Counted from the stretch's first letter, positions 21,179 through 52,770 are shown. The stretch is DNA of 64,000 nt from Oligoflexus sp. (GCA_014377445.1 JACMPP010000018.1:26702-90701); one strand, 5' to 3'. Notes: generated by a model not told the origin, from the letters alone. A program made the numbers and translations.

Positions 21179-21526
21179 CTTTGTTTTTCTTCAGAACGAA
21201 GTCGCGGGCTTAGAAGCTTTGGCTCCGGCCTGAGGGTTACAATTCGGCATAATAAACCGCTGATCATCGGAGCCGACCTGGCCGATAGAGTTTTATCAAG
21301 CGAATGATCGCTTCGACTGGTTCCCCGAAGTCGTTTTTGATCCGTTTGGTTCGTTAGACGGATTTTTTTTTCGGTATGAGCTCGTTCGTAATTCTGAGTT
21401 CATTGAATACGCCTTTACGGCGGTATCTAAGAGCTGAACCCCAAGTTTTTTATGATCAAAAGACTTCGCTCTGGTCAAATAGTGGCGTTCGTGTTTGATT
21501 GTGGGGAACCGCGGAAAGGGAGAGCT

Positions 21527-21985
21527 ATGGTTGACACCGTCAAAGTTGGGCACGAATGGTTTTGGGAGCGTTTGGACCAATACCTGGCTAAATCTCAACT
21601 TAAACATAGTAAGCAGCGCAATTTCATCATCGAAGAATTTTTGCAGATGAAAACCCACGTGAGCGCCGAAGAACTCTATAGCCAGCTCAAGACCATGGAT
21701 CATAATCCAGGGCTTGCAACGGTATATAGGACGCTTAATCTGCTTAAAGATGCAGCTCTGGTTGATCAGAAGCAATTTTCGGACGGTAAATCCGTATTTG
21801 AAGTCATGGAACCTGGCAGCCATCATGATCACTTGATCTGTTTGACTTGCCATAAAGTTATAGAATTTGAGAATGAAGAGATCGAACGTCTTCAGGAGCA
21901 GGTTGCCAAAAAACTAGGCTTCAAGTTGACCAAACATTCCCTCGAACTTTTCGGTCACTGCAGCGACTGCGTAAAGACGCTCTAA
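21527..21985 (+). CDS. Fur-family transcriptional regulator
   Basis: KHSKQRNFIIEEFLQMKTHVSAEELYSQLK...GLATVYRTLNLLKDAALV...HHDHLICLTCHKVIEF...CSDC. Confidence 0.93.
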   Translation: MVDTVKVGHEWFWERLDQYLAKSQLKHSKQRNFIIEEFLQMKTHVSAEELYSQLKTMDHNPGLATVYRTLNLLKDAALVDQKQFSDGKSVFEVMEPGSHHDHLICLTCHKVIEFENEEIERLQEQVAKKLGFKLTKHSLELFGHCSDCVKTL

Positions 21986-23775: not shown

Positions 23776-24651
23776 TCAAGGACCTTCGGCTCCGATCCAG
23801 AAGCCATCGTCAAGGCTTTGGGAGAGCCAAATCATGACCTTCTCGTCGAGGTCCGGGAGCAAAGGAAGGTATTCCCTTCCCATTCGATCCATAGCCTCTT
23901 CCAGAGGATAGGCGGTAAGGAACTGATAGAGTCGATACTGAGGCTCGGGCAAGGGCTTTGCCGTGACGGCGCCCTGACTCCGAAAGAGAGCCCAGTACTG
24001 CGGCGTGGGGAGAGCCGGGCCGGGGGATACAGCCCCTTCGCCCGGATGGAGTCCATTCAAAATTTCCAGGCGAAGTGGAAGAAGGGCCAAACCTTCTTCG
24101 AAGAGGGCCAAGGCTTTCGACGCTACAAGTTGTAGATGAGGCAGACGAGCTGCTTCGTCTGAATTTGGACGCCATAATTTTTGCGGGGCAGCATAAAAGA
24201 CTTGGGTGAAGGCCTGATCGATCGTAAAGGCTTCACCAACTGTCGAGACTGCGAGTTTTTTGTGGCCGAGCTTGGCGAGATCGGTCGGGGCAAGGTTTTG
24301 CAGAAATCTTTGAAACCCACGACTTAGTTCACTGAGATCATAATGCGCAGGTGGCTCCGCGATAAGAAATTCCTGAACGAGCTGATTGAACTGCCAAAGG
24401 CCGAGAAGTCTCGATGTCAAAGGCGCCTGATCCTGCATCACATTAAAAAGACGAAACCAGTACTGCTGATTATAAACGCTGAGACGCGAGCTGGCAGGGC
24501 CGTGTTCACTCTCCTGGATCCTGAGGCCTTGGCTTTGGATACCTAGATCCTGGACTTTGAGCTTCCCTGTTGAGACGGAGAGGGGAGTGCGTATCGCATC
24601 GCCAAAGTTTTTTTGAAAACGTTCTAAAAAATCTTTTGTTTCGGCCTTCAT
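23776..24651 (-). CDS. DUF2063-type MNIO partner protein (BufC/HvfC-like)
   Basis: RLSVYNQQYWFRLFNVMQDQAPLTSRLLGLWQFNQLVQEFLIAEPPAHYDLSELSRGFQRFL; coupled to the DUF692 gene (shared base 24651). Confidence 0.8.
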   Translation of the reverse strand: MKAETKDFLERFQKNFGDAIRTPLSVSTGKLKVQDLGIQSQGLRIQESEHGPASSRLSVYNQQYWFRLFNVMQDQAPLTSRLLGLWQFNQLVQEFLIAEPPAHYDLSELSRGFQRFLQNLAPTDLAKLGHKKLAVSTVGEAFTIDQAFTQVFYAAPQKLWRPNSDEAARLPHLQLVASKALALFEEGLALLPLRLEILNGLHPGEGAVSPGPALPTPQYWALFRSQGAVTAKPLPEPQYRLYQFLTAYPLEEAMDRMGREYLPLLPDLDEKVMIWLSQSLDDGFWIGAEGP

Positions 24652-25487
24652 CAGCGCCCCCCCCGAATCAAGGACGCTTTTTCCAGTTCGGCGATCACGT
24701 CTGTGAGGCTTGGAATCTGATCATCCCATTCCAGAAGGGTGGGGAAGGGCCCGCCGAAGCTCCACGCTGTCTGATAAAGCTCCCAGACGGCCTGGGTGAC
24801 GGGCGCATCGTGGGTATCGATGATACTCCCATCGGCCTGACGTTGATGACCGGCAATGTGTACCTGAGACACGCGGGAAAAGTCGATCGATTCGATATAG
24901 CGTATGGGATCGAAGCCATGATTTTGGCTCGACACATAGATGTTATTGATGTCGAGCATGAAGTGACAATCGGCTTCTTTGACGACTGCGCCGTAGAACT
25001 CCCATTCGTTCATCGTGGAGTCGGCAAAGCTCACGTAGCTCGATAGATTTTCCAACGCAAAGGGTCTTTGCAGAAGTGTCTGCACTTCGGCCGCGCGTTC
25101 CGCCGCCCAACTTATGAGATCGTGGGTGTAGGGAGTGGGCAGGAGATCGTGATGATGGGCCCCATGCGCTCCGCTCCAGCAAAGGTGGTCGCTGACAAAG
25201 TCCGGATCGACCTTGTCCGTGAGGGCTTTTAAGCGCAGAAGATAATCCGCCCTTAGGACTTCGTGACCCAATAGATTGAGCCCCACCCCGTGCATGACCA
25301 CGGGATATTCTTGGAGGATCCTATCGAGTTTTTCAGCAGGGGGGAGGGCGTCGCCCATAAAATTTTCGCTGATGATTTCGAAGTAGTCGAGAGGGGGGTG
25401 GTCGGCGAAGATTTGCTGGTAATGAGCGGGTCTAAGGCCGATGCCGAGCGCGTTGCGAGCGAGTTTCAATGGTCTTTGACTGCTCAC
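24651..25487 (-). CDS. DUF692 multinuclear non-haem iron oxidative enzyme (MNIO; BufB/MbnB/TglH family)
   Basis: GIGLRPAHYQQI, FEIISENFM, VMHGVGLNLLG, VSDHLCWSG, LENLSSYVSF, LDINNIYVSSQNHGFD, VHIAGH, IDTHDAPV, LLEWDDQIP. Confidence 0.95.
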   Translation of the reverse strand: MSSQRPLKLARNALGIGLRPAHYQQIFADHPPLDYFEIISENFMGDALPPAEKLDRILQEYPVVMHGVGLNLLGHEVLRADYLLRLKALTDKVDPDFVSDHLCWSGAHGAHHHDLLPTPYTHDLISWAAERAAEVQTLLQRPFALENLSSYVSFADSTMNEWEFYGAVVKEADCHFMLDINNIYVSSQNHGFDPIRYIESIDFSRVSQVHIAGHQRQADGSIIDTHDAPVTQAVWELYQTAWSFGGPFPTLLEWDDQIPSLTDVIAELEKASLIRGGR

Positions 25488-25502
25488 AATGCGCTCCGTT
25501 TT

Positions 25503-26228
25503 TTACAGACCCAGGTTTTCGCCGAAGACTGTGTATTCCTCAGCACGAGGCGTGAGCGCCCGAAGGTGGGCCACCACGCGTTCGATCTCCGCACGGGATA
25601 GTTTCTCATAGAAGGCTGGCATATTCGAGTAGGATGTTCCGTTGGCGTTTACGCCGTGCTTGCCGAAGGCTACGATGGCAACTTGAGCTTCCAAAGATTT
25701 CATGCGGAAGCTGTCCTCAGCTTTCTTGAGATCCGCGCCGGGTGCAGCGAAGACTTTAAATGCAGTCGGATCTTTTGTTTTCGTGGCTTCGTCGGCGACA
25801 CCGTGACACTCACCGCAGCTTTTTGAGTAGAGTTCTTCGGCAAGGGCTCCCGTATCTTTGGGAAGCTCGACGCAGGACATGCCACCACAGCTATTTGAAG
25901 CGCTACAACTATGCTCGATCATCTTTTGGCTGTATTTATTGTAAGACATGCCTTTGCAGCTGTTGGTACCGCCGCAGGTTGCGTGGGTTTGCACAAGGCC
26001 GCCTCGCGTCTTGCAGTCGCTTGAGAATGTGGCAAAGGTCAAGCCGGGGATGGGCTTGGTGGAGATGATCTTGTTGGCGCTTTCCATAGGTGTGATCAGA
26101 GCCGTGGGGGCTTGATCCTCTTTATCATTGGAACAGGCGACCAGACCGCCTGCCATGAGGCCGGCAAGTGCCGCTGTGAGAAGGCGTGATGGTTTGGCCG
26201 AAGTATTGAGTTCGTTGGTAACGTTCAT
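25503..26228 (-). CDS. Lipoprotein with Cys-rich repeat region fused to a monohaem c-type cytochrome; candidate MNIO substrate
   Basis: Lipobox LVAC; CGGTNSCKGMS and CSASNSCGGMSC; haem motif CGECH; likely axial Met in YSNMPAF. 15 bp upstream of the DUF692 gene. Confidence 0.85.
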   Translation of the reverse strand: MNVTNELNTSAKPSRLLTAALAGLMAGGLVACSNDKEDQAPTALITPMESANKIISTKPIPGLTFATFSSDCKTRGGLVQTHATCGGTNSCKGMSYNKYSQKMIEHSCSASNSCGGMSCVELPKDTGALAEELYSKSCGECHGVADEATKTKDPTAFKVFAAPGADLKKAEDSFRMKSLEAQVAIVAFGKHGVNANGTSYSNMPAFYEKLSRAEIERVVAHLRALTPRAEEYTVFGENLGL

Positions 26229-26331
26229 AGGTTTATCCTGCTATAGAATTTTGAATGGAGAAATAAAGATTTTTACGAATAAGCGTGTTGCCCAAGCGAG
26301 CGCAAATTGTGGCTCGTGGCTCAGTCTTTAA

Positions 26332-26742
26332 TCATGAAATGAGAAAGGGGGCTTGACTGAACTTGGGGTAGGGCGGTTCGATCGCAGGGGAATAATTTAG
26401 ATAATAATGGGGGGGTAATTGGGTGTCGGGCGCAAAGACTATTGATTTGACTACTATAAAGTCGCTCGGATTTTCGAATTTGAGAACAGCGTAAGCGAAT
26501 GTGCTTATCGAACAGGGACAAAGATCGTAGGCGCTTATCTTTGTCTGACCTGGATTGGATGACTTCACTGCCGGATCATGAGACGCATCTTCATGGCAGG
26601 AGAGAGCTGCGGAAGCGTCGTGCGAATGAATCTTTAAAAAAGACAGGAGAGAGTCACAACGGGGAACGCTGGCGATCGCTACATTTATGGCAAGCCATAA
26701 GATAGCGAAGAGATTTAGATATTTTTTGAAAATGGCCGTCAT
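26332..26742 (-). CDS. Small exported Cys/His-containing protein
   Basis: 136 aa; N-terminal hydrophobic signal, then IHSHDASAALSCHEDASHDP and AYDLCPCSIS; co-directional with the MNIO operon. Confidence 0.6.
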   Translation of the reverse strand: MTAIFKKYLNLFAILWLAINVAIASVPRCDSLLSFLKIHSHDASAALSCHEDASHDPAVKSSNPGQTKISAYDLCPCSISTFAYAVLKFENPSDFIVVKSIVFAPDTQLPPHYYLNYSPAIEPPYPKFSQAPFLIS

Positions 26743-42031: not shown

Positions 42032-42688
42032 ATGGAGGCTCTACATCACTATTTTGAGTCGGGTGGATATCCGGTCATGTTTTCGATTCTTGCAACACTC
42101 GTCATCTCATTGGCATTGATTATCGAAAGATCGTACCGCCTGTGGATGGAGTTCGATCTCGTGAATTCGGACGGATTCATGGCCATGGTTCAAAAAATGG
42201 TCATGAATAACTCGATTGAAAACGCGATCCGTCTCTGCAAGAAAGCTCGCCCCAAGCTTTTGCCTTATGTTTTGGCAGAGGGCCTGAAGCGCTCCAACGA
42301 TTCGACTCAAGAGATTTCGAATGCAGTTGATCAAGCGGTTCTCACAGTGGTTCCTAAGATCAACAAGACTGTTTCGTTCCTGGCTACAACCGCGAACGTC
42401 GCAACTCTTCTCGGTCTCCTCGGTACTATCTTCGGTCTGATGCGCTCCTTCGCAGCGGTTGCCAAGGCCACAGGTGCTCAGAAGCAAACTCTTCTCGCTG
42501 AAGGTATCTCAGAAGCTTTGAACGCGACCTCATTTGGTCTCTCCACAGCTCTCTTCTGCCTCTTCTGCTACGGTGTTCTTTCCGCGAAGCAAAAAATCAT
42601 CGTTGATGATGTCAACAAAAACGCAGCGAAGCTGGTTGACTTGCTTTATACACGTAAAATGAAGCTCAAAGGCACCAAAAAAGCCTAA
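42032..42688 (+). CDS. MotA/TolQ/ExbB proton-channel protein (AglR-like)
   Basis: TTANVATLLGLLGTIFGLMRSFAAVAKA...GISEALNATSFGLSTALFCLFCYGVL. Confidence 0.92.
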   Translation: MEALHHYFESGGYPVMFSILATLVISLALIIERSYRLWMEFDLVNSDGFMAMVQKMVMNNSIENAIRLCKKARPKLLPYVLAEGLKRSNDSTQEISNAVDQAVLTVVPKINKTVSFLATTANVATLLGLLGTIFGLMRSFAAVAKATGAQKQTLLAEGISEALNATSFGLSTALFCLFCYGVLSAKQKIIVDDVNKNAAKLVDLLYTRKMKLKGTKKA

Positions 42689-42704
42689 AGCTTAGGAGTC
42701 GATA

Positions 42705-43253
42705 GTGTCATCGCATAAAAAAAGACGGGGTCAGAATAGTGGCGCGGGTCCTGAGACCCCGGAACTCAATGTTATGCCATTTATCGATGTCTTCTCTATG
42801 CTAAATATCTTTCTCCTGGTGTCAGCATCGTTCTTGGGGCTGGGGATTTTGGAAGTCCAAATACCCTTCCTTTCGAACTCTCCTGACGTGAAAGATCCAC
42901 CGAAGCGATCCTATTCGATTCGGATTGATCTGGAAGACGCTCAGGTGAAAGTGACTTCCCTCTGGACCGCAGCGCCGGAAGAGAAGAACGAGAAGACATT
43001 CACCTACGAGCCCGCAGACATCGCGAAATTCCATCAGGAAATGATCGATCTGCGAGTTAAAGTGCCTGAGAATGACAAAGTTACGGTTTATGCGGACAAC
43101 ACGGTGAAGTACGAGCAGTTGATCAAGGTCATCGACAACGTCAAGACCTTGAAAGAGAAGGAACCACCGTTGGCTATCCCGGGTCAAGAAGAGAAGAAGG
43201 GCAACCAAAACTTCATCTTCGAAAAAGTAATTATCGGTAGTGTTATTCTTTAA
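42705..43253 (+). CDS. TolR/ExbD-family protein (AglQ/S-like), copy 1
   Basis: PELNVMPFIDVFSMLNIFLLVSASFLGLGILEVQIP: TolR TM with conserved Asp. Confidence 0.88.
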   Translation: MSSHKKRRGQNSGAGPETPELNVMPFIDVFSMLNIFLLVSASFLGLGILEVQIPFLSNSPDVKDPPKRSYSIRIDLEDAQVKVTSLWTAAPEEKNEKTFTYEPADIAKFHQEMIDLRVKVPENDKVTVYADNTVKYEQLIKVIDNVKTLKEKEPPLAIPGQEEKKGNQNFIFEKVIIGSVIL

Positions 43254-43270
43254 GATAAAGGAGATGGCTT

Positions 43271-43783
43271 ATGGCTTCAGCAGGTGGTGATTCAGGCGAG
43301 ACGTTATCGCTCAACCTCATGCCCATGCTCGATATCTTCAGTATCTTGGTAACATTCCTACTGATGAGTTACTCGACAGATCCGACCAATCACGACGTCG
43401 ATCAGAACCTTGAGTTGCCGGATTCGGTGACCATGGTGACGATGGACGAAGTGCCCGCCATCATCGTCAACAGAAACGAGATTTTTGTGAACAACAAGAA
43501 AATCGTCACTCTGGAAAACGGTAAGGTCCCTGCGGGCGATCTTGCGCAGGGGGCTATCATGCCCGTTTACACCGCGCTCAAAGAAATCGATGATGCCAAC
43601 GCCAAGGTGTTGGCCGATTTCCGCGGTGAAAGTGCCAACGGAGAGAAAAAAGCCAAACCTGGCGAGATCACGATCGAGATGGACAAGAAGCACGACTTTC
43701 AGCTTCTGAAAAGAATTATGCTCTCAGGCCAGCAGGCGAATTTCATCACCTTTAAGCTCTTGGTGGCTAAAGAGTCGATCTAG
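43271..43783 (+). CDS. TolR/ExbD-family protein (AglQ/S-like), copy 2
   Basis: LSLNLMPMLDIFSILVTFLLMSYS...NHDVDQNLELP: TolR TM with conserved Asp. Confidence 0.88.
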   Translation: MASAGGDSGETLSLNLMPMLDIFSILVTFLLMSYSTDPTNHDVDQNLELPDSVTMVTMDEVPAIIVNRNEIFVNNKKIVTLENGKVPAGDLAQGAIMPVYTALKEIDDANAKVLADFRGESANGEKKAKPGEITIEMDKKHDFQLLKRIMLSGQQANFITFKLLVAKESI

Positions 43784-43801
43784 ACCCGAGGAAAGGCAAA
43801 C

Positions 43802-44626
43802 ATGAAGGCCCTTCTGCCTAAATGCGGTAAGTTCTCAAAAGTCGTCCGGGATACGGGCAGGGGTAGCTTGATTGCTCTCCTGGCCTTTGCGTTTCTAGAA
43901 ACCGCTGTGATGACCCGGCCGGTCTTTGCCGAGGACGCAGTTCCTTCAGCAGAAGCCGAGCGATTCAAGAATACTGAGATTCGAGTGATTCGACCTCGGT
44001 ATTTCAATAAATCGAAGCGATTCGAGCTTGGGGCGGCGTTCAATGCCATCATGAACGAGAGCTTCATCTACACCTTCATGGCGACCGGCATCGCCACGTT
44101 CCACCTTAATGAAGAGTGGGCGCTGGAAGGTCAATTGTCCTATGGACTTAATGTCGATCGCGAAGACAAGCGTATCCTCTTTGATGAATTCGACATCAAA
44201 ACCCAAATTTTCCGAACGCAATACCAAATGGAACTGGCCATTCAATACACCCCGATTTACGGGAAATGGCAGCTTCCTTCGGGGCGTTTGATCTATTTCG
44301 ATACCTATCTGACCGCAGGTTTGGGTCAAACCGGTATCGCCTGGAAGTACGACGACTTTTGCGAAGCCCCAACCGGCACCGATGCCGAGGCGCTTCCTGC
44401 CAACGCGGTGAAAGGCTATCCGACCTTTATGGTGGGTGGCGGCCAACGTTATTTTATCAATCGCACCACGTCGTATCGTTTTGAGATCAAGTTTCACCGG
44501 TTTCTATACAATGAAATCGATGCAGAATGTAGCCCGATCAAAGCGCAGGCTTCGGGCACGCAATTTGCCAGCGGTGCACCCCATGATGTCATTACTATCC
44601 TCCTTGGTATCTCACGATTCTTTTAG
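43802..44626 (+). CDS. Outer-membrane beta-barrel protein (GltA/B-like position)
   Basis: Signal peptide (LIALLAFAFLETAVMTRPVFAED), amphipathic strands, aromatic C-terminus GISRFF*. Confidence 0.7.
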   Translation: MKALLPKCGKFSKVVRDTGRGSLIALLAFAFLETAVMTRPVFAEDAVPSAEAERFKNTEIRVIRPRYFNKSKRFELGAAFNAIMNESFIYTFMATGIATFHLNEEWALEGQLSYGLNVDREDKRILFDEFDIKTQIFRTQYQMELAIQYTPIYGKWQLPSGRLIYFDTYLTAGLGQTGIAWKYDDFCEAPTGTDAEALPANAVKGYPTFMVGGGQRYFINRTTSYRFEIKFHRFLYNEIDAECSPIKAQASGTQFASGAPHDVITILLGISRFF

Positions 44627-44640
44627 TTCTTCGAGGGCAT

Positions 44641-46203
44641 ATGGCTAGGAAATCGCGATTCGCAGCAACAATTCTCCTTCTTGCTTGGTCTATGCTGGGG
44701 AGCCAGTCGCTTTTTGCTGATTACAAGCAGGCGAAGGCTCTCTACACCAAGAAGAATTATCCGAAGGCCGCTGAAGCCTTCTTTGAAGTCTATGAAAAAG
44801 GCGCCAACAAGGTTGAGAAACGCAAGGCGGAATGGGGCCTCGCCCAATCCCTTGAGAAGATGAACCTCGCTTATTCGGCTTCCAAGTACTACAGCGTGAT
44901 CGTCAGACGGGGTCGGGTAGCCGATAACCCGTTTTTCCGCTCGGCGCTCGAAGAATTGGGCAAGATCAACAGCCGGATCAGTCTCGGTCAATCGCACATC
45001 GTGCAGCTCTTCAAGACCGAGATCAGGCTCTCCGACGTTCCCGGTCCCGCACGCGGCTTCTATTTCTACTACAAAGGCGTAGAAGCTTTCAGTGACAAGG
45101 CCCTTGAGACAGCGGACAAACATTTTGAAATGGTGCCTGCCGGTAGTCCCTACCAGTTGGGCGCTTTGTTTCATCAGGGCGTAATCGCCAACCTTCAGGG
45201 TCGCCACTCACGGGCGATCGCTCTTTTCGAAAAAGTACTGGCCGGTACTCGGGAGCGTCCTGAGTACAAAGAGCTGCAAGAGATGTCTCTTATGAACATC
45301 GCGCGGGTCAACTACGAGATCAAACGCTTCACTGAGGCGATCTCCTACTATGGCCAAATTCCACGCGATTCAGAAAACTGGCTCGACGCTATCTGGGAAT
45401 CCTCATGGGCGTTCTTCTTTATTGAGAAGTTCAATAACACTCTCGGGAACATCCATACGATTCACTCGCCCTTCTTTGAGAATCGTTTCTATCCCGAGGC
45501 GTATATCCTTCAGGCGATCACATTCCTCAGAATGTGCCGCTTCGATCAGGTGAAAGAGTCGATGAAACGCTTCAAAGATCGCTACCAGCCGGTCTTTGGT
45601 GATGTGCGTGGGATGATGAACCGCTACAAAGGCGATCCCAAAGGCTTCTTCAAGTTTATCTATGACTACCGTACAGGATCATTGACGAGCTACCGCAAAG
45701 CTGAAGAGATCGTGAAGAAACTGTCTCAGGTCGACGCCTTCAAAGAAGCGATGGATACCATTCGCTTTACGGATCGCGAATTGAATACTTTGAAGTCCAA
45801 AGGCGCGAGCTGGAAGGGTGGGGCTCTGTTAGAGGATATCACCGGTTTCCTTGAATCCAAAAAATCAGCTGCGATTCTCGATGCCGGCCAACGTGTTTAT
45901 AAAGAAGGCAGCACTTACTACACACAGCTCCTCGATCTGTCCAACCAGACCAAGTTGATCGTGGCCGAGATGCAGCTTGGTAAACTCGCCAACCTTCGGG
46001 CCCTCATTAGTATTTCGGATGCCGATAAGAAAGCTCAGTTTATCGGTGGTCTTCAGTCGATGAATATTAACCAAACCTTGGAGTTCTGGCCTTTTGAAGG
46101 CGAATACTGGGAAGACGAACTTGGCTTCTATGTCTACAACATGCCAAGCAAGTGCGTTTCTCAGAAAGATGCTGATAAAGAAAAATCCGGACCTTCAGAA
46201 TAA
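44641..46203 (+). CDS. Exported TPR protein
   Basis: Signal FAATILLLAWSMLGSQSLFAD; TPR-like AKALYTKKNYPKAAEAFFEVYEKG, HFEMVPAGSPYQLGALFHQGVIANLQGRHSRAIALFEKVL. Confidence 0.8.
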   Translation: MARKSRFAATILLLAWSMLGSQSLFADYKQAKALYTKKNYPKAAEAFFEVYEKGANKVEKRKAEWGLAQSLEKMNLAYSASKYYSVIVRRGRVADNPFFRSALEELGKINSRISLGQSHIVQLFKTEIRLSDVPGPARGFYFYYKGVEAFSDKALETADKHFEMVPAGSPYQLGALFHQGVIANLQGRHSRAIALFEKVLAGTRERPEYKELQEMSLMNIARVNYEIKRFTEAISYYGQIPRDSENWLDAIWESSWAFFFIEKFNNTLGNIHTIHSPFFENRFYPEAYILQAITFLRMCRFDQVKESMKRFKDRYQPVFGDVRGMMNRYKGDPKGFFKFIYDYRTGSLTSYRKAEEIVKKLSQVDAFKEAMDTIRFTDRELNTLKSKGASWKGGALLEDITGFLESKKSAAILDAGQRVYKEGSTYYTQLLDLSNQTKLIVAEMQLGKLANLRALISISDADKKAQFIGGLQSMNINQTLEFWPFEGEYWEDELGFYVYNMPSKCVSQKDADKEKSGPSE

Positions 46204-46225
46204 TAGTGTTTGATAAGGGATTTCT

Positions 46226-49200
46226 ATGCGCTTTCTGCTCGTCACATTGTTGTTGCTGGGACTTGGCTTAAGTCCTGTCGCCCTAAAGGCGCAGGAGCAA
46301 AAGCGTTCGGTTTTGAAAGTTGAGGAGCGTAAACGCGAGAAAAGCGGTGTGGATGCGAAGAAGCCGCCTCAACTCCGCCGTTCAGCTGTCTTTGCGATGC
46401 AAGTCGAAAAAAAGCTGATCACCGGTATTGATAAAACAACTTCCTATCTCGAGAAAACTGCGAAGAGCCTGCCACCCAAGTCGCCGCAGCGCCTCCAGAT
46501 ACTCGAGCGTATTTTGAACCTTCATATGGAACAAGCCACCTACGTTCGTTCCGAAGAGGAACGGGATTTCGATAAGCGTTGGAAAGCCTGGCAAGGTGTC
46601 GGTAAGAAAGGCGCTGAGCCACGCCTTTCAACGGCCAAATCCATGGGTCACTGGAAAAAGGTCATCAGTCAGACGTCTGAGATCCTCACCGAGTACCCCC
46701 GCAGTGAAAACGCGGATCAGATCACTTATAACAAGGCCGTCGCTCTCCAATACCTTGGCAAGGAAAAGGATTCGGCCCGTATCTTCACACAGTTGATTCA
46801 GCAGTATCCCAACTCAGCGATCGCCGGTGATGCTTACGCGTCGCTCGGAGACTTCTACTTTGACCGTAACGACTTTTCGAGCGCCAAAGGCAACTTTAGC
46901 AAAGCTTTGAAATACAAAAGGTCGAAACGCTACCTCTGGTCGATGTTCAAACTCGGCTGGTGTTCCTACAACTTGAGCGATTACAAAGGGAGTTTGACCT
47001 ACTGGAAACAACTCGTTCTGCTCGCCAAGGGTAGCTCAGGCCAGGACGCAAACTTACGTGAAGAAGCTCTCCGCGACATGGTTTATGCCTTTGCGGAATT
47101 GAAAATGATCGACGAAGCGATCGCTTACTACCGTGCGAACGGTGGCGTTCAGTACATCGGTCCCTTCCTGACCCTTCTCGCTCAGATCCTCTCGGATCAG
47201 GGCGCTTATGCTCAGGCGATCTCGGTTCTCAAACGCTTCCAGAGTTTGGTGCCAAACGATCCGGAAGGCGCGAACGCACAAAAAGAAGTCATTAGTCTCT
47301 ACGCAGCCTTGGGCACAATGCCTAAGGTGTGGGTTGAACTTGAGCGTTATGCCTTGCAATACGGCGCTACCTCGGCCTGGGCCAAAGCGAACGATCCGAA
47401 ACTCGTTCTCGAGACTCAAAATGAAATCAAAGATCAAATGATCTACTACTCGACCCTGACCCACCAAAACGCAATCAAAGATGACAACCGCGAGGGCAAC
47501 CTCGAGGCGAAGAAGGGTTATCTCCTCTTTATCAAGTACTTCCCGAAAGCACGCGAAGTCACGGCCATCAAGTACTACGTGGCTGATATCGAGTACTACA
47601 TGAAGGATTACAAATCTGCGGGACGTTACTATCTCGAGATCGCCAGTCTGGGCAAAGCCAACGCGATCAAATACATCGGTAAGGCTGACAAAGGTGAGAA
47701 CATTCACAAAGAAACGTCCGTCAACATGGTGAACGCTTTTGTTAAAGACTTCGAACCTGAATTCAAAGTTCTTAAAAAGGAAAAGCCTGACTTCACCAAA
47801 CCCAAACCCATCTCGGTGCGAGCCCGCAACTATGCCAAGGCCTGTAGCAAATACGTGGAATGGTATCCGGAAGACAAAGAGCGCGTGAAGAGTTGTGACA
47901 TCGGTGTCACCGATGTGTTCTATCACTCGGCTCAAAAAGAGAACGCCATCAAGTACCTTAAGAATGTGGCTGTGAAGTATTCAAGTGCCAAGGAAGGCCA
48001 GAACGCAGTCGATTCTTTGATTCCGATCGTTAAGAACGATCGTCAGGCGCTCCTGACAACGGCCAGCTTTCTCCTGAAAGTACCTGAGTACCGAAACGGC
48101 AAAGTCGGCCAGGATTTGCGCAACATTCAACGGGGCGCTGAGAAAGAAGACATTGCCAAGGAAAGCGATGTGTTCAAACGCGGTCAACGGTCCGAAGCGC
48201 AGGCGCGTAAATACCCAACCGATCCGGATGTCGATAAACTTTGGTATAACGCTGCGGTCGATTATCTGAAAGCCGGAGCGATCTCGCAGGCGATCACAGC
48301 TTACCTCGTGATCGTGACCAAGTTCCCCGACAAGCCGCAGGCCAAGGATTCTTTGCTTCAGGTCGGGCAGATTTACGAAAAACAACTGGAATACGAAAAA
48401 GCCTCTGAGTACTACACCGTATTTGCGAATAAATATCCGAAAGAGAAGGAAGCGGGTCCGGCTTTGGCCACTGCTTGCGAACTTCAGATTGCTTTGAACA
48501 CAGCGAAGGCACTCTCGGCCTGCAATGCTTATGCAGCGAAAGAACCAGCGGGCGCTCAGGGCTTTACGGAAGAACTGATCGAAGGGGCCGAACGCGCAAA
48601 ACGCACCGAGCAACTCGTGACGATCATCAAGACGCAATACCTGAACAAGTTTAAACTCAATCCGAATCAGCAGATCGTGGCTTACTACCGCATCTACCGT
48701 TCGGGTTCAGGCGAAGCCGCTCAGGCGGCCCAACAGATTCGCGCTATCTTCAATCAGAACTCCTCGGCGGTGTCGGGTGAAGCTGTTCGTTACGTAGGGG
48801 AACTCGCTTACAAAGAAGTCGAAGGTGTGGTACCCCGCTTCATGAAACTCGGCCTTGCCGGTGGAACTGTCGACAACCTCGCGAAGTCGATCGAAAACAA
48901 AGGCGTTGGTCTGCAGCAAGTTGAGCAACAACTGAGTAAAGTCGTGAACACGAAAGACCCTTACTGGGGTGTTGCGGCTCTCTACCAACTCGGTCTGGCG
49001 AACGAACATTTTGCTGAGATTCTGGCCAATCCACCTGCAATTCAGGGCGCGAGCAAAGAGGAGGTCATGAAAGAACTGGCACCTCAGATTGCCGGCCGCA
49101 AGCAGGAAGCTATGAAGTGGTACAAAACCGCTCAGGATACGGTCTCGCAATTCAAAGTGTATAACGATTGGTCCATCCGGGTCCTGGCGGGTGTCAACCG

Positions 49201-49306
49201 CCTCTCCGGCAAAAAGCTTCAGTTCGACGACTATGTGGTCTCGCCTGACTTTATGGGATCGGAATTGGCTGGCAGCATGACCTCTAGCCTGAAAGGAGAT
49301 AAATAA
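46226..49306 (+). CDS. Large exported TPR protein (GltD/AgnA-like position)
   Basis: 1026 aa; signal; many TPR repeats (e.g. NADQITYNKAVALQYLGKEKDSARIFTQLIQQYPNSAIAGDAYASLGDFYFDRNDFSSAKGNFSKAL). Confidence 0.85.
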   Translation: MRFLLVTLLLLGLGLSPVALKAQEQKRSVLKVEERKREKSGVDAKKPPQLRRSAVFAMQVEKKLITGIDKTTSYLEKTAKSLPPKSPQRLQILERILNLHMEQATYVRSEEERDFDKRWKAWQGVGKKGAEPRLSTAKSMGHWKKVISQTSEILTEYPRSENADQITYNKAVALQYLGKEKDSARIFTQLIQQYPNSAIAGDAYASLGDFYFDRNDFSSAKGNFSKALKYKRSKRYLWSMFKLGWCSYNLSDYKGSLTYWKQLVLLAKGSSGQDANLREEALRDMVYAFAELKMIDEAIAYYRANGGVQYIGPFLTLLAQILSDQGAYAQAISVLKRFQSLVPNDPEGANAQKEVISLYAALGTMPKVWVELERYALQYGATSAWAKANDPKLVLETQNEIKDQMIYYSTLTHQNAIKDDNREGNLEAKKGYLLFIKYFPKAREVTAIKYYVADIEYYMKDYKSAGRYYLEIASLGKANAIKYIGKADKGENIHKETSVNMVNAFVKDFEPEFKVLKKEKPDFTKPKPISVRARNYAKACSKYVEWYPEDKERVKSCDIGVTDVFYHSAQKENAIKYLKNVAVKYSSAKEGQNAVDSLIPIVKNDRQALLTTASFLLKVPEYRNGKVGQDLRNIQRGAEKEDIAKESDVFKRGQRSEAQARKYPTDPDVDKLWYNAAVDYLKAGAISQAITAYLVIVTKFPDKPQAKDSLLQVGQIYEKQLEYEKASEYYTVFANKYPKEKEAGPALATACELQIALNTAKALSACNAYAAKEPAGAQGFTEELIEGAERAKRTEQLVTIIKTQYLNKFKLNPNQQIVAYYRIYRSGSGEAAQAAQQIRAIFNQNSSAVSGEAVRYVGELAYKEVEGVVPRFMKLGLAGGTVDNLAKSIENKGVGLQQVEQQLSKVVNTKDPYWGVAALYQLGLANEHFAEILANPPAIQGASKEEVMKELAPQIAGRKQEAMKWYKTAQDTVSQFKVYNDWSIRVLAGVNRLSGKKLQFDDYVVSPDFMGSELAGSMTSSLKGDK

Positions 49307-50445
49307 TGAAATCTCTTTGGCAAGTCAGTCTCCTGGCCTTTCTCGTCGTATCCTGTGCGACGACTGATAAAAAAGGTGGCAAAGCGGATTCCTCCTCGTC
49401 TTCGAAAGACGATGACGACAAGGATGACAAGAAAGACGGCGATAAGGGCGACGAGGCCTACGTCTCATCGGGCTTCTCGACCTTCACTTATAGTCTGACG
49501 AATAATGGTTTGACGTCTTTCACGGTGAATTCCTCCAAGGCCAAGGGCATGGCGGATGATCTGGACGGCAAACTGAAAAATCCGACTTCCAAGGATCGCA
49601 AGGAGTTCATCGCCTTGATGGCTGCGAAGCGTCTGGCGGGTGAGGGTGTCCTCCCCGTATTTCAGGTGGCCAAACGCCTGATGGTTGTCGAGATGAAAGA
49701 CAACATCAAAAAGAATATGCCAGAAGTCGCGATGCTCGAGCTGGCCTTGGCATCGATTCACTCCAAGCAGATTCCGATGGCCGAACACTGGATCGGCAAA
49801 CTCCTTCAATCCAAAAACCCGAAGACCAAGGCCGCGGCTTTGAACGCTCAGGGCATGATCGCTCTGCTCGATAACCGTCTGCCGGAAGCTGTGGCTTTTT
49901 GGAACGACGCTTTGAAAGCCAAAAGTGATTACGAACCTTCCCGATTGAACATCGCTTTCACGGCACTGCGTTACGGCGATGTGAAAACAGCCAAAGCCAT
50001 GTTTCAAGGTGTGAACCAGGACTGGTTCGTTCAAACGGGTATGATGCAGGTTGAGCGACTGAGCGATAATGCTTCGGAAGCTGCCAGCCTCTGTAAATCG
50101 ATTCTTGAGAAAAAGCCAAATTATAAGCCGGCTCTCTTCAGTTGTGCCCTCAACGAGTATCAGGGTCTCGGTAATCTCGCGAAAGCGCGTACCGATCTTG
50201 AGCATGTGGCAAAGTCGGGTGGCGGACCTTCTTCGATCGACGAAAAAACTTTCCTGGTTTTGGGTAAAATCGAAAAAGAACTCTACGTTCAGCAACAAAA
50301 AGATGGGGCCGCGAAGGCCGCCGCAGCCAATGCCGCCGCTAAGGCGAAGGCCGCTGCCGCCGCACCAGCCCCTACTTCTGCGGCGCCCGCTGCACCCGCA
50401 GCCCCCGCGAGCGGTGAAAAAGCCGCTCCGCCTCCTGAAAAGTAA
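49306..50445 (+). CDS. TPR lipoprotein with Ala/Pro-rich tail (GltE-like position)
   Basis: MKSLWQVSLLAFLVVSCATTDKK lipobox; start codon overlaps previous stop. Confidence 0.85.
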   Translation: MKSLWQVSLLAFLVVSCATTDKKGGKADSSSSSKDDDDKDDKKDGDKGDEAYVSSGFSTFTYSLTNNGLTSFTVNSSKAKGMADDLDGKLKNPTSKDRKEFIALMAAKRLAGEGVLPVFQVAKRLMVVEMKDNIKKNMPEVAMLELALASIHSKQIPMAEHWIGKLLQSKNPKTKAAALNAQGMIALLDNRLPEAVAFWNDALKAKSDYEPSRLNIAFTALRYGDVKTAKAMFQGVNQDWFVQTGMMQVERLSDNASEAASLCKSILEKKPNYKPALFSCALNEYQGLGNLAKARTDLEHVAKSGGGPSSIDEKTFLVLGKIEKELYVQQQKDGAAKAAAANAAAKAKAAAAAPAPTSAAPAAPAAPASGEKAAPPPEK

Positions 50446-50455
50446 AGATGCCAAG

Positions 50456-50483
50456 GCCCGCAGCGATTTGCGGGTCTTTTTTT
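50456..50483 (+). terminator. Rho-independent terminator
   Basis: GCCCGCAgcgattTGCGGGT + T7. Confidence 0.75.
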
Positions 50484-50625
50484 ATAGCCGAAAAGCATAA
50501 AGCATATGTCTTGCTCTTCAGCTATTTCTGTATCATTTACCAAGAAGGCTTCCCATTTACGCCCTGACACGCAATAATAGTTGTATTAGCGTTTTAATTT
50601 CGATCTTGATGACAGAGGAACGTGA

Positions 50626-52770
50626 ATGAACCTCGAGATTCACTATTCGCCTCCGAATCAGTCGCGACAGGTAGTCCCTGTACGCGACCGACTCATGATA
50701 GGTTCCTTGTTATCGAATGAAGTCGTGATTCGCGCGGCGGGTATAGAACCTATTCACGCGATGATAGAAGTGCTGGAAAACGGCGTTCACATTCTTACCG
50801 ATCTTGGCTCCCAGTCGGGAGTGTATTTGAACGGTCAGAAGGTTGATGTAGAAGCACCCGTAAAAATTGGCGATAAGATAACCATCGGCAACGTTTTGGT
50901 AGAGGTTTTTGCACAAGCCGCAGCTGGGGCAGCCCAGTTTCAACGTGCAGAAAACGACAGGATTCAGGTTGGAGACATGACAACCCATCGTGGCAAAGCC
51001 ACAGTTGTCAGTCCAGCAACTCGAGCCGCCTACTCGGACGAAGACGACGATGCGGAGCATGCAGACGAGATGAGCGAAGATTCAAGGTCTACAGTACTCG
51101 CAGATCCAAGAGATGGGGATAGGGGATCCGATAACGGAGAACCATTATTCTCGCCGCGTAACGCAAAACCAAGTGGCAACGTTCTTGAAGTCGTAGCTTA
51201 TTGGGATGATACGATCTTGGACGTGGATATGTTCCACCCAAAGATTAAGAACAATGAACGCGTGACGATCGGTACCCCCAGCAAGGCGCATTTTCTTGCC
51301 GGCGGCACAGAGGATATTAAGCGCTACAAGCTTGCTTCGGTTGCCAAAGAAGGCTACACCGTTCACCTTAAATCAGATATGACCGCGCGCATCCGCAAGG
51401 GTGGCCGCGTGATCGAGGAGACCGGCGACAAATCGATCGAAATGAGCAAGAACGATATCGCGCACGTCACCCACGGCGCGATCAAGTACTTCCTCATGTT
51501 CATCAAGCCACCGGTTTTGGATCTGCCCAGGAACAGTGCCCGCGATCCTTTGTTCATGGCCATTCTCGCTATTTCTGCGCTCCTCTATTGCGCCGCGATT
51601 CCTGCGATCTACATGAGCAAGAATCCAAAAGCCGCGGATAACGATGACATCTGGTCGATCGTGAATACACCTGAGAAAAAAGAGGAAGTAAAGCCGCCAG
51701 AGAAACCAAAACAGGTTGTGGCGGAAGTAAAAAAAGAGCCACCACCTCCGGTTGAACCTCCCAAGCCGCCACCCAAACCTCCGGCTCCGGTGAAGCCTGA
51801 AGAGAAGGCGAAGCCCGTTGAGACCCCAAAACAAACGGTGGCGGTAACGAAGCCGGTGGAGATTCCTAAGCCGGTCCAAGCCCCTGCGACGCCTCCTAAA
51901 GCGCCAACGCCTGAAAAGGCTGCTGCGAAAGAAGGTATGGCTAAGCTTGCTGATAAACCCGACATGAAGAATGCCGGCAAGGTCGATAAATCCAAGGCGC
52001 AAGGTCTCAGTGGCGGTCCTTTAGCGGGTGGCAAGCCCAACCCAACAGGCGGCGGCGCGCGCGAAGGTAAAACCAAGGTTGATATGGCCGGAGCCGAAGG
52101 CGGCGCTCCGAACAAAGCTTCCGGTATCAACCTCTCGAAACTCGGCATGAGCGCAGGTAAAGTCTCGGCATTAGCCGGAGCGGGCGCGATTAAAACAGAC
52201 TTTAAAGACAGTGCTGGCGGTGCTGGCGGTGGATCGGGCTCGGCGAATAAAACATCCGGTCTCGGTGGACCGGGTAGCGGTGCAACTCTCGGTGTATCCG
52301 GAGCCGGTGGCGCGACCAACAACTTCGGTGGCGGCATGGGCGGTTCAGCCTCCGGTGCCGGTGGAGCGGGTGGTCTTGGCGGTGCCGGTCTCGGCAATGG
52401 CTTCGGGAAAAAAGGTGGGACAGGCAATTCAGGCCGCGCTTCCGTCGAAGTTCCCCCAGGCGATCCAGTCGTCAGCGGTGGTCTTACGCAGCAGGAAGTT
52501 CAAGCTGTTATCCGGGCGAACCTCAACCAGATTCGCCACTGTTACGAACAACTCCTGCAGCGTTCACCGAACGCCAACGGTAAGATTAAGGTGAACTTCG
52601 TGATCGGGCCGAACGGTTCGGTAACAACAACCTCGATCGGTTCGGACACAGTCAACGATTCGAACATGGCAGGATGTGTGACCGGAAAGATCGTTCGTTG
52701 GAAATTTCCCACCCCTCGCGGTGGTCAAAAGGTCGATGTTAACTATCCTTTCGTCTTCAATCCTATGTGA
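50626..52770 (+). CDS. FHA domain - TM - Pro/Gly-rich - AgmX/PglI (TonB-like) C-terminal domain protein (GltG-like)
   Basis: N-terminal FHA-like (DRLMIGSLLSNEVVIRAAGIEPIHAMIEVLENGVHILTDLGSQSGVYLNGQKV); TM LFMAILAISALLYCAAIPAIYM; C-terminal VSGGLTQQEVQAVIRANLNQIRHCYEQLLQRSPNANGKIKVNFVIGPNGSVTTTSIGSDTVNDSNMAGCVTGKIVRWKFPTPRGGQKVDVNYPFVF. Confidence 0.9.
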   Translation: MNLEIHYSPPNQSRQVVPVRDRLMIGSLLSNEVVIRAAGIEPIHAMIEVLENGVHILTDLGSQSGVYLNGQKVDVEAPVKIGDKITIGNVLVEVFAQAAAGAAQFQRAENDRIQVGDMTTHRGKATVVSPATRAAYSDEDDDAEHADEMSEDSRSTVLADPRDGDRGSDNGEPLFSPRNAKPSGNVLEVVAYWDDTILDVDMFHPKIKNNERVTIGTPSKAHFLAGGTEDIKRYKLASVAKEGYTVHLKSDMTARIRKGGRVIEETGDKSIEMSKNDIAHVTHGAIKYFLMFIKPPVLDLPRNSARDPLFMAILAISALLYCAAIPAIYMSKNPKAADNDDIWSIVNTPEKKEEVKPPEKPKQVVAEVKKEPPPPVEPPKPPPKPPAPVKPEEKAKPVETPKQTVAVTKPVEIPKPVQAPATPPKAPTPEKAAAKEGMAKLADKPDMKNAGKVDKSKAQGLSGGPLAGGKPNPTGGGAREGKTKVDMAGAEGGAPNKASGINLSKLGMSAGKVSALAGAGAIKTDFKDSAGGAGGGSGSANKTSGLGGPGSGATLGVSGAGGATNNFGGGMGGSASGAGGAGGLGGAGLGNGFGKKGGTGNSGRASVEVPPGDPVVSGGLTQQEVQAVIRANLNQIRHCYEQLLQRSPNANGKIKVNFVIGPNGSVTTTSIGSDTVNDSNMAGCVTGKIVRWKFPTPRGGQKVDVNYPFVFNPM

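Follow-up and report, generated by a model that had tools for sequence, protein, structure and literature searches.

The closest described relatives of the locus presented here are the Buf2 bufferins (BufA2-BufB-BufC), in which the gene of an exported Cys-rich precursor with a CxGxNxC ... CxGxNxC core precedes those of a BufB-type MNIO (DUF692) enzyme and of a DUF2063 protein, and of which about 16% are predicted lipoproteins (PMC12452194). In established systems, pairs of an MNIO and a PME1 partner convert Cys to 5-thiooxazoles, at -4 Da each, before Sec export, and their products bind copper (PMC12452194, PMC13097082); the systems of this type characterised so far install copper-associated 5-thiooxazoles (PMC13097082). 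Two further kinds of precursor come close to ours. Bufferin domains joined to a cytochrome c domain, as here, have been named in a few instances, the Buf1|Cytochrom_C and Buf1|Cytochrom_C|FGE-sulfatase fusions (WP_017136223.1, WP_160059411.1), without an analysis of their linkage, clade or context (PMC12452194). The DAG-RiPPs likewise start from an MNIO-modified lipobox precursor that is destined for lipidation after modification in the cytoplasm; their products are lipidated modified peptides, and no cytochrome c substrate is mentioned (PMC12636315). The methanobactin system (MbnA/MbnB/MbnC) shares the MNIO superfamily, copper and Cys chemistry.

The operon analysed in this study lies within 64,000 nucleotides of Oligoflexus sp. 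(hereafter the window) and follows the bufABC order: on the minus strand, the gene of a lipoprotein cytochrome c of 241 aa (25503-26228) is succeeded by an MNIO gene with a GTG start (24651-25487) and by a DUF2063 gene (23776-24651). The stop codon of the cytochrome gene ends at 25503, leaving 15 bp to the GTG, and the TGA of the MNIO gene has one base in common with the ATG of its partner. An earlier sequence-only reading had placed this pair at the same coordinates with the same anatomy, and it had described the gene 15 bp upstream as a lipoprotein with a Cys-rich segment, a CGECH motif and an axial Met, all of which are present. Compared to Buf2 bufferins, the precursor is a two-domain protein with a haem c domain and two of its six Cys relocated, it stays below the BufA2 cut-off, the MNIO belongs to a separate clade, and DoxX is missing among the neighbours scanned in the window. 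The Buf1|Cytochrom_C fusions carry DUF2282, whereas the window protein has a Buf2-derived domain and no DUF2282 match. We consider it probable that a copper-binding RiPP and a cytochrome c are combined in the membrane-anchored product of this operon, a hybrid that would serve copper handling at the respiratory envelope.

The MNIO matches the Pfam family MbnB_TglH_ChrH with 327 bits and the NCBIfam model of BufB (NF050167) with 324.2 bits against a cut-off of 310, and it is similar to the solved MNIO structure 3bww (E 2.5e-41). Its residues H66, H101, E146, D179, H210, D224, H226 and E253 are kept in all 14 fusion-linked MNIOs that were compared. The partner is a DUF2063 protein of PME-type 1 (PF09836, 51.7 bits against 27.2). 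With regard to an RRE-type second domain, it reaches 13.1 bits with the HvfC model against a required 142, and a comparison with PDB sequences returned no match. A BufB-type enzyme above its curated cut-off, together with a DUF2063 partner in bufABC order, supports the copper-binding hybrid. A methanobactin-type reading was rejected, as the MbnB model (TIGR04159) yields 57 bits against a cut-off of 325, and the locus differs from methanobactin also in its DUF2063 partner and its exported two-domain substrate.

The lipoprotein begins with a signal peptide (26133-26228) that ends, by direct reading, in the lipobox L-V-A-C32, and it continues with six Cys (72, 85, 91, 108, 114 and 119), the haem-attachment motif CGECH at residues 138-142 (25803-25817) and the axial Met203 (25620-25622) in an N-M-P context. 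Cys32, Cys138, Cys141, His142 and N202-M203-P204 are invariant among eight aligned proteins. The C-terminal domain (25554-25841) is a class I cytochrome c by its CXXCH motif, axial Met and fold: it lies above the Pfam cut-offs of PF00034 (Cytochrom_C, 31.2 against 21.3) and PF13442 (Cytochrome_CBB3, 30.5 against 27), the alignment profile retrieves CcoP (2.4e-7) and cytochrome c6 (8e-5) among PDB sequences, and the predicted domain resembles cytochrome c6 with a probability of 0.99 but an E-value of 0.02. The genome from which the window derives encodes cytochrome c assembly proteins, which counts in favour of the hybrid. The Cys domain is poorly resolved in the AlphaFold model, with a pLDDT of about 46-66 through the core, which counts against the hybrid, and the model gave no haem-copper geometry. 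The h-region of the signal peptide contains an A-x-x-G-L motif (AALAGL), found in 10 of 14 Cys-domain lipoproteins, 12 of 20 ordinary BufA precursors and 3 of 24 background lipoproteins in an exploratory comparison, for which the motif was picked after viewing the data and in which at least two of the background sequences are actually fusion proteins. Its presence in both groups is suggestive of a role of the signal peptide in recognition, a view also taken by the authors of the work on MNIO-PME1 systems (PMC12452194, PMC13097082).

The six-Cys core, C72 to C119 (25872-26015; C85-x5-C91 ... H106-x-C108-x5-C114-x4-C119), is the presumed region of modification. A profile of 14 such segments aligns with a profile of 11 BufA precursors at Prob 94.9 and a score of 39.6, while 60 column shuffles reach at most 13.3. 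The aligned core reads C-x-G-x-N-x-C-x-G ... E-H-x-C-x-x-x-N-x-C-x-G; four of the six BufA2 Cys find a counterpart in it, and in place of the other two the segment has C72 ahead of the core and C119 behind it. By BLASTP, four Cys of a relative (L008) align with the BufA2 peptide of the window's own genome. Matches of relatives to the BufA2 model are subthreshold (E 6.6e-4 and 1.7e-3; 18.5-19.8 bits against a cut-off of 60), the window protein does not match the curated model (NF050166), and Pfam offers no useful match to the segment. Within the 14 segments C72, C85, C108, C114, C119 and H106 are kept throughout and C91 in 13, being lost in L077. On these comparisons the segment is a diverged BufA2-type (Buf2 bufferin) domain that falls outside BufA2 by the curated test, and this homology in turn supports the hybrid; the score below the BufA2 model, the two Cys that do not align and the loss of C91 in one relative weigh against it. 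The sequence-only reading had set the protein apart from typical short bufferin and DUF2282 precursors. An identity of the segment with Buf1 was rejected, there being no DUF2282 match up to E 10, but the Cys segment is not foreign to bufferins. The window's genome also contains a second, ordinary system (L012:2736-4764, contig C99), composed of a BufA2 peptide with 54.4 bits against the cut-off of 60 and, after it, an MNIO-DUF2063 fusion protein of 575 aa. In five relatives (L046, L047, L050, L051 and L054) tandem BufA-like precursor genes precede a single MNIO gene and have long inserts between the Cys pairs.

Because the MNIO was never part of the query, which consisted of the 66-aa Cys segment alone, the linkage that emerged is independent evidence. 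Six of 63 genomes of the window's phylum were positive, a GTDB-wide pattern scan returned seven loci, two of them beyond these six genomes, and among 378 genomes from the phylum to which a myxococcal relative belongs, eleven were positive, nine of them strongly. The cytochrome c fusion is present in 15 distinct genomes, from the window's phylum, from Myxococcota and from one further delta MAG, and its recurrence in 14 genomes other than the window's argues that the cassette is not a product of chance; plasmid-borne relatives of the fusion were searched for and none was found. MNIO and DUF2063 genes adjoin the fusion gene in 14 of the 15. Thirteen genomes have the order cytochrome-MNIO-DUF2063, and G364 has its MNIO and DUF2063 genes ahead of the cytochrome gene. 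In the fifteenth genome (G324) the fusion sits on a short 4.4-kb contig (L078) without an MNIO gene; this locus was rejected as an exception to the linkage, since one MNIO of G324, encoded on another contig, falls inside the fusion-linked clade described below. In G131 the Cys domain belongs to a lipoprotein without cytochrome, whose gene is convergent with the MNIO and DUF2063 genes, and the two weak matches are plain BufA2-like lipoproteins adjoining MNIO-DUF2063 fusions. Every strong match of the Cys domain thus adjoins an MNIO and a DUF2063 gene or, in G324, has an MNIO of the clade elsewhere, a regularity in favour of the copper-binding hybrid. The lipoprotein cytochrome c is therefore the likely MNIO substrate: a failure of the cytochrome gene to be conserved beside DUF692 and DUF2063 had been set beforehand as a possible refutation, and the comparison of genomes speaks for the substrate that the sequence-only reading had proposed, with the amendment that its Cys segment is bufferin-derived.

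The linkage also bears on a different reading of the six Cys, which could be simple disulfides. A respiratory cytochrome c would then have a domain with three such bridges, of structural or thiol-redox function, and the MNIO would modify some other, unlinked peptide. The number of conserved Cys is even, the curated BufA2 model does not recognise the segment, and thioredoxin-like genes are found near related operons (L011 and L087). However, a query with nothing but the Cys domain recovered the linkage, the MNIO clade goes along with that domain, the domain is homologous to BufA2, and in the window the cytochrome gene stands in the position of the precursor, 15 bp before the MNIO gene. We regard the disulfide domain as improbable.

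In MNIO trees of 48 and 49 sequences, the second of which adds the enzyme of G324, the fusion-linked MNIOs and the MNIO of the cytochrome-less homologue in G131 form one clade (support 100/99), within which the G324 enzyme is placed and the deep forks are unresolved under the limited sampling. The MNIOs sampled from systems with short precursors (BufA2, BufA1 and other Cys-rich types), among them the second MNIO encoded in the window's own genome, fall outside. The branch closest to the clade (L055) is an MNIO that serves a BufA2-like lipoprotein, and a single clade with such a relative agrees with a hybrid of bufferin descent. The simplest history would be that a lipidated BufA2 gained a cytochrome c domain once, followed by one later loss.

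The same branching can be read with a more modest role for the haem. On the one hand, the protein may be an ordinary captophorin with a passenger: copper is buffered by the modified BufA2-like domain, and the cytochrome is electronically separate from the copper site, being only a stable anchored carrier or an electron carrier in its own right. Bufferins that are lipidated but lack a cytochrome have been described (PMC12452194), the sister MNIO of L055 is preceded by a lipoprotein BufA2, and L076, a clade member without cytochrome, has kept its Cys domain and MNIO, so that one lineage at least does without the haem. A passenger without function should degenerate over time, yet the CXXCH motif and the axial Met are retained in 15 of 15 fusions across two or more phyla, and the RegB/RegA-like and YtkA-like neighbours treated below indicate redox and respiration. 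This explanation is a serious competitor to which we give roughly one chance in three. On the other hand, a Cys-derived copper site may be electronically coupled to the covalent haem within one lipoprotein, which would capture copper at the respiratory envelope and oxidise or reduce it there, and the maturase would have to separate three kinds of Cys; we put this strong form forward tentatively, at about the same weight as the passenger.

As the most likely product we propose a copper ligand of the thiooxazole type (a "captophorin") that is anchored by a lipid and linked to a haem. Since the Cys domain is homologous to bufferin precursors, conversion to 5-thiooxazoles should occur there too; in some environmental bacteria the MNIO, an iron enzyme that uses oxygen, and its partner would probably rewrite Cys in a membrane-anchored cytochrome c and so equip an electron carrier with a copper-binding module of its own, a type known hitherto almost only from free small peptides. 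In the cytoplasm, the two proteins would recognise the precursor, probably in part via its signal peptide, and turn some Cys of the BufA2-derived domain oxidatively into what are most likely 5-thiooxazoles, leaving untouched the Cys of the lipobox and the two that bind haem. Export by Sec, lipidation at Cys32 and attachment of haem c at CGECH in the periplasm would follow. Once mature, the protein would hold copper on the modified domain beside the haem of the same chain and act as a buffer for Cu that either alters the redox state of the metal or passes it on. We infer the modification itself, the choice of Cys, the binding of copper and the redox link from the copper and 5-thiooxazole precedent of MNIO-PME1 pairs and from the features of the locus. 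One chain would thus contain three kinds of Cys, for heterocyclisation, for lipidation and for haem binding.

Genes around related operons, as far as their sequences identify them, speak for copper and respiration. In L008 the DUF2063 gene is followed by that of a Csp1 copper storage protein (TIGR04401, 113 bits against a cut-off of 100). YtkA-like lipoprotein genes lie near the operon in six loci (L008, L009, L011, L013, L018 and L075, the last a weak match with E 1e-4) and genes of RegB/RegA-like two-component systems in five (L008, L009, L013, L018 and L075); the YtkA and RegB profiles were built in-house from L008, L013 and other loci, and the independent matches are mainly those of L018 and L075. 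The best named models for the two-component proteins of L008 are the redox regulators ActS/PrrB/RegB and ActR/PrrA/RegA, below their cut-offs. A Silvanigrellales MAG encodes, a few genes from its fusion operon (L018:9938-12099), an MbnH di-haem enzyme and an MbnP copper-binding protein (487 and 264 bits). The fusion proteins L079:6203-7261 and L080:2029-2940 contain extra DxDG repeats, and that of L079 matches PF11617 (the MopE metal-binding motif), which represents a further accretion of metal sites in the fusion family. Csp1, the YtkA-like, MbnH/MbnP and RegB/RegA-like neighbours and the MopE motif inside one fusion fit the hybrid well; the copper genes vary between loci, and in the window none was identified as an immediate neighbour of the operon, which weighs against it. 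It is these neighbours that favour the metal- or redox-coupled role suggested by the sequence-only reading, in which modification, copper binding and electron transfer are presumed.

The neighbours are compatible with protection from copper as well as with its supply to oxidases, and the latter gives rise to a further explanation that overlaps with our preferred one and differs in purpose. The protein could supply copper to a haem-copper oxidase, as a chaperone or metallation factor, instead of acting as a detoxifying buffer: the attached haem would reduce the copper bound on the modified domain, which would then go to YtkA-like proteins and to those that assemble CuA. In Bacillus subtilis, YtkA/CtaK assists in the assembly of CuA (PMC13344008), and the six loci with YtkA-like genes (weakly in L075), the RegB/RegA-like regulators and the MbnH/MbnP pair of L018 are in line with such a purpose. 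Against it, characterised bufferins protect from copper excess (PMC12452194), the Csp1 gene adjoining the operon in L008 also fits storage, and oxidase genes were not recognised adjacent to the operon. A metallation factor appears rather unlikely to us, at perhaps one chance in four; the CuA precedent also counts for the copper-handling hybrid that we prefer.

Bufferins, lipidated bufferins, DAG-RiPPs and a few Buf1|Cytochrom_C fusions are already published (PMC12452194, PMC12636315). Relative to the literature searched, what is new is a cytochrome c fusion built on a Buf2-type domain, the separate MNIO clade that accompanies it, the occurrence of the fusion in both the window's phylum and Myxococcota, and its surroundings of copper- and redox-related genes, although some of the proteins may be contained in the tables of PMC12452194. 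The published screen of signal-peptide precursors was restricted to fewer than 200 residues (PMC12452194), and proteins of the 241-aa class would therefore have been passed over there. If our interpretation is true, MNIO chemistry extends from small peptides to a folded redox protein, and the family is a natural test of how an MNIO chooses between Cys, since lipobox and haem Cys must stay intact. It would also be a concrete candidate for a tie between RiPP copper ligands and respiration, which has so far merely been suggested.

The span 23776-26742 contains a further ORF on the minus strand (26332-26742), which was absent from the earlier description and proved informative. It encodes a small exported Cys/His protein of 136 aa, a putative operon member and a candidate accessory or metal-sensing protein; the metal-sensing role is a guess. 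It has the pattern PRC29 ... C49-H50 ... C75-x-C77 ... PPYPK and matches neither Pfam nor NCBIfam. Together with L086:6543-6938 and L087:5922-6305 it constitutes a family of small exported Cys/His proteins (PRC...CHE...CxC...PPPK), whose genes either stand upstream of copper-type operons or diverge from them; in L010, a homologue diverges from the fusion operon itself. A paralogue elsewhere in the window's genome and a homologue in G005 lie directly upstream of a YtkA-like and a barrel-like gene, and YtkA-like and barrel-like genes also flank the fusion operon in L008, L009 and L011. The position of these homologues links the window operon to the YtkA/barrel set, though the two are apart in the window's genome. 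The barrel-like protein (L008:6762-7697, L011:489-1361, L086:5077-5985 and L087:4261-5148) is distinguished by an N-terminal C[AS]SCGSG..DP motif, and its gene always directly follows that of the YtkA-like lipoprotein. It has no Pfam match in L008 and L011 and no NCBIfam match in L008.

Promoter-like sites in the operon region occur at chance level only. A Fur-family regulator is encoded on the plus strand (21452-21985), about 2 kb from the operon. Farther along the window (42032-52770), genes for ExbB, ExbD, several TPR proteins and an FHA/TonB_C protein stand in a row, which we take to resemble the Agl/Glt motility cluster of myxobacteria.
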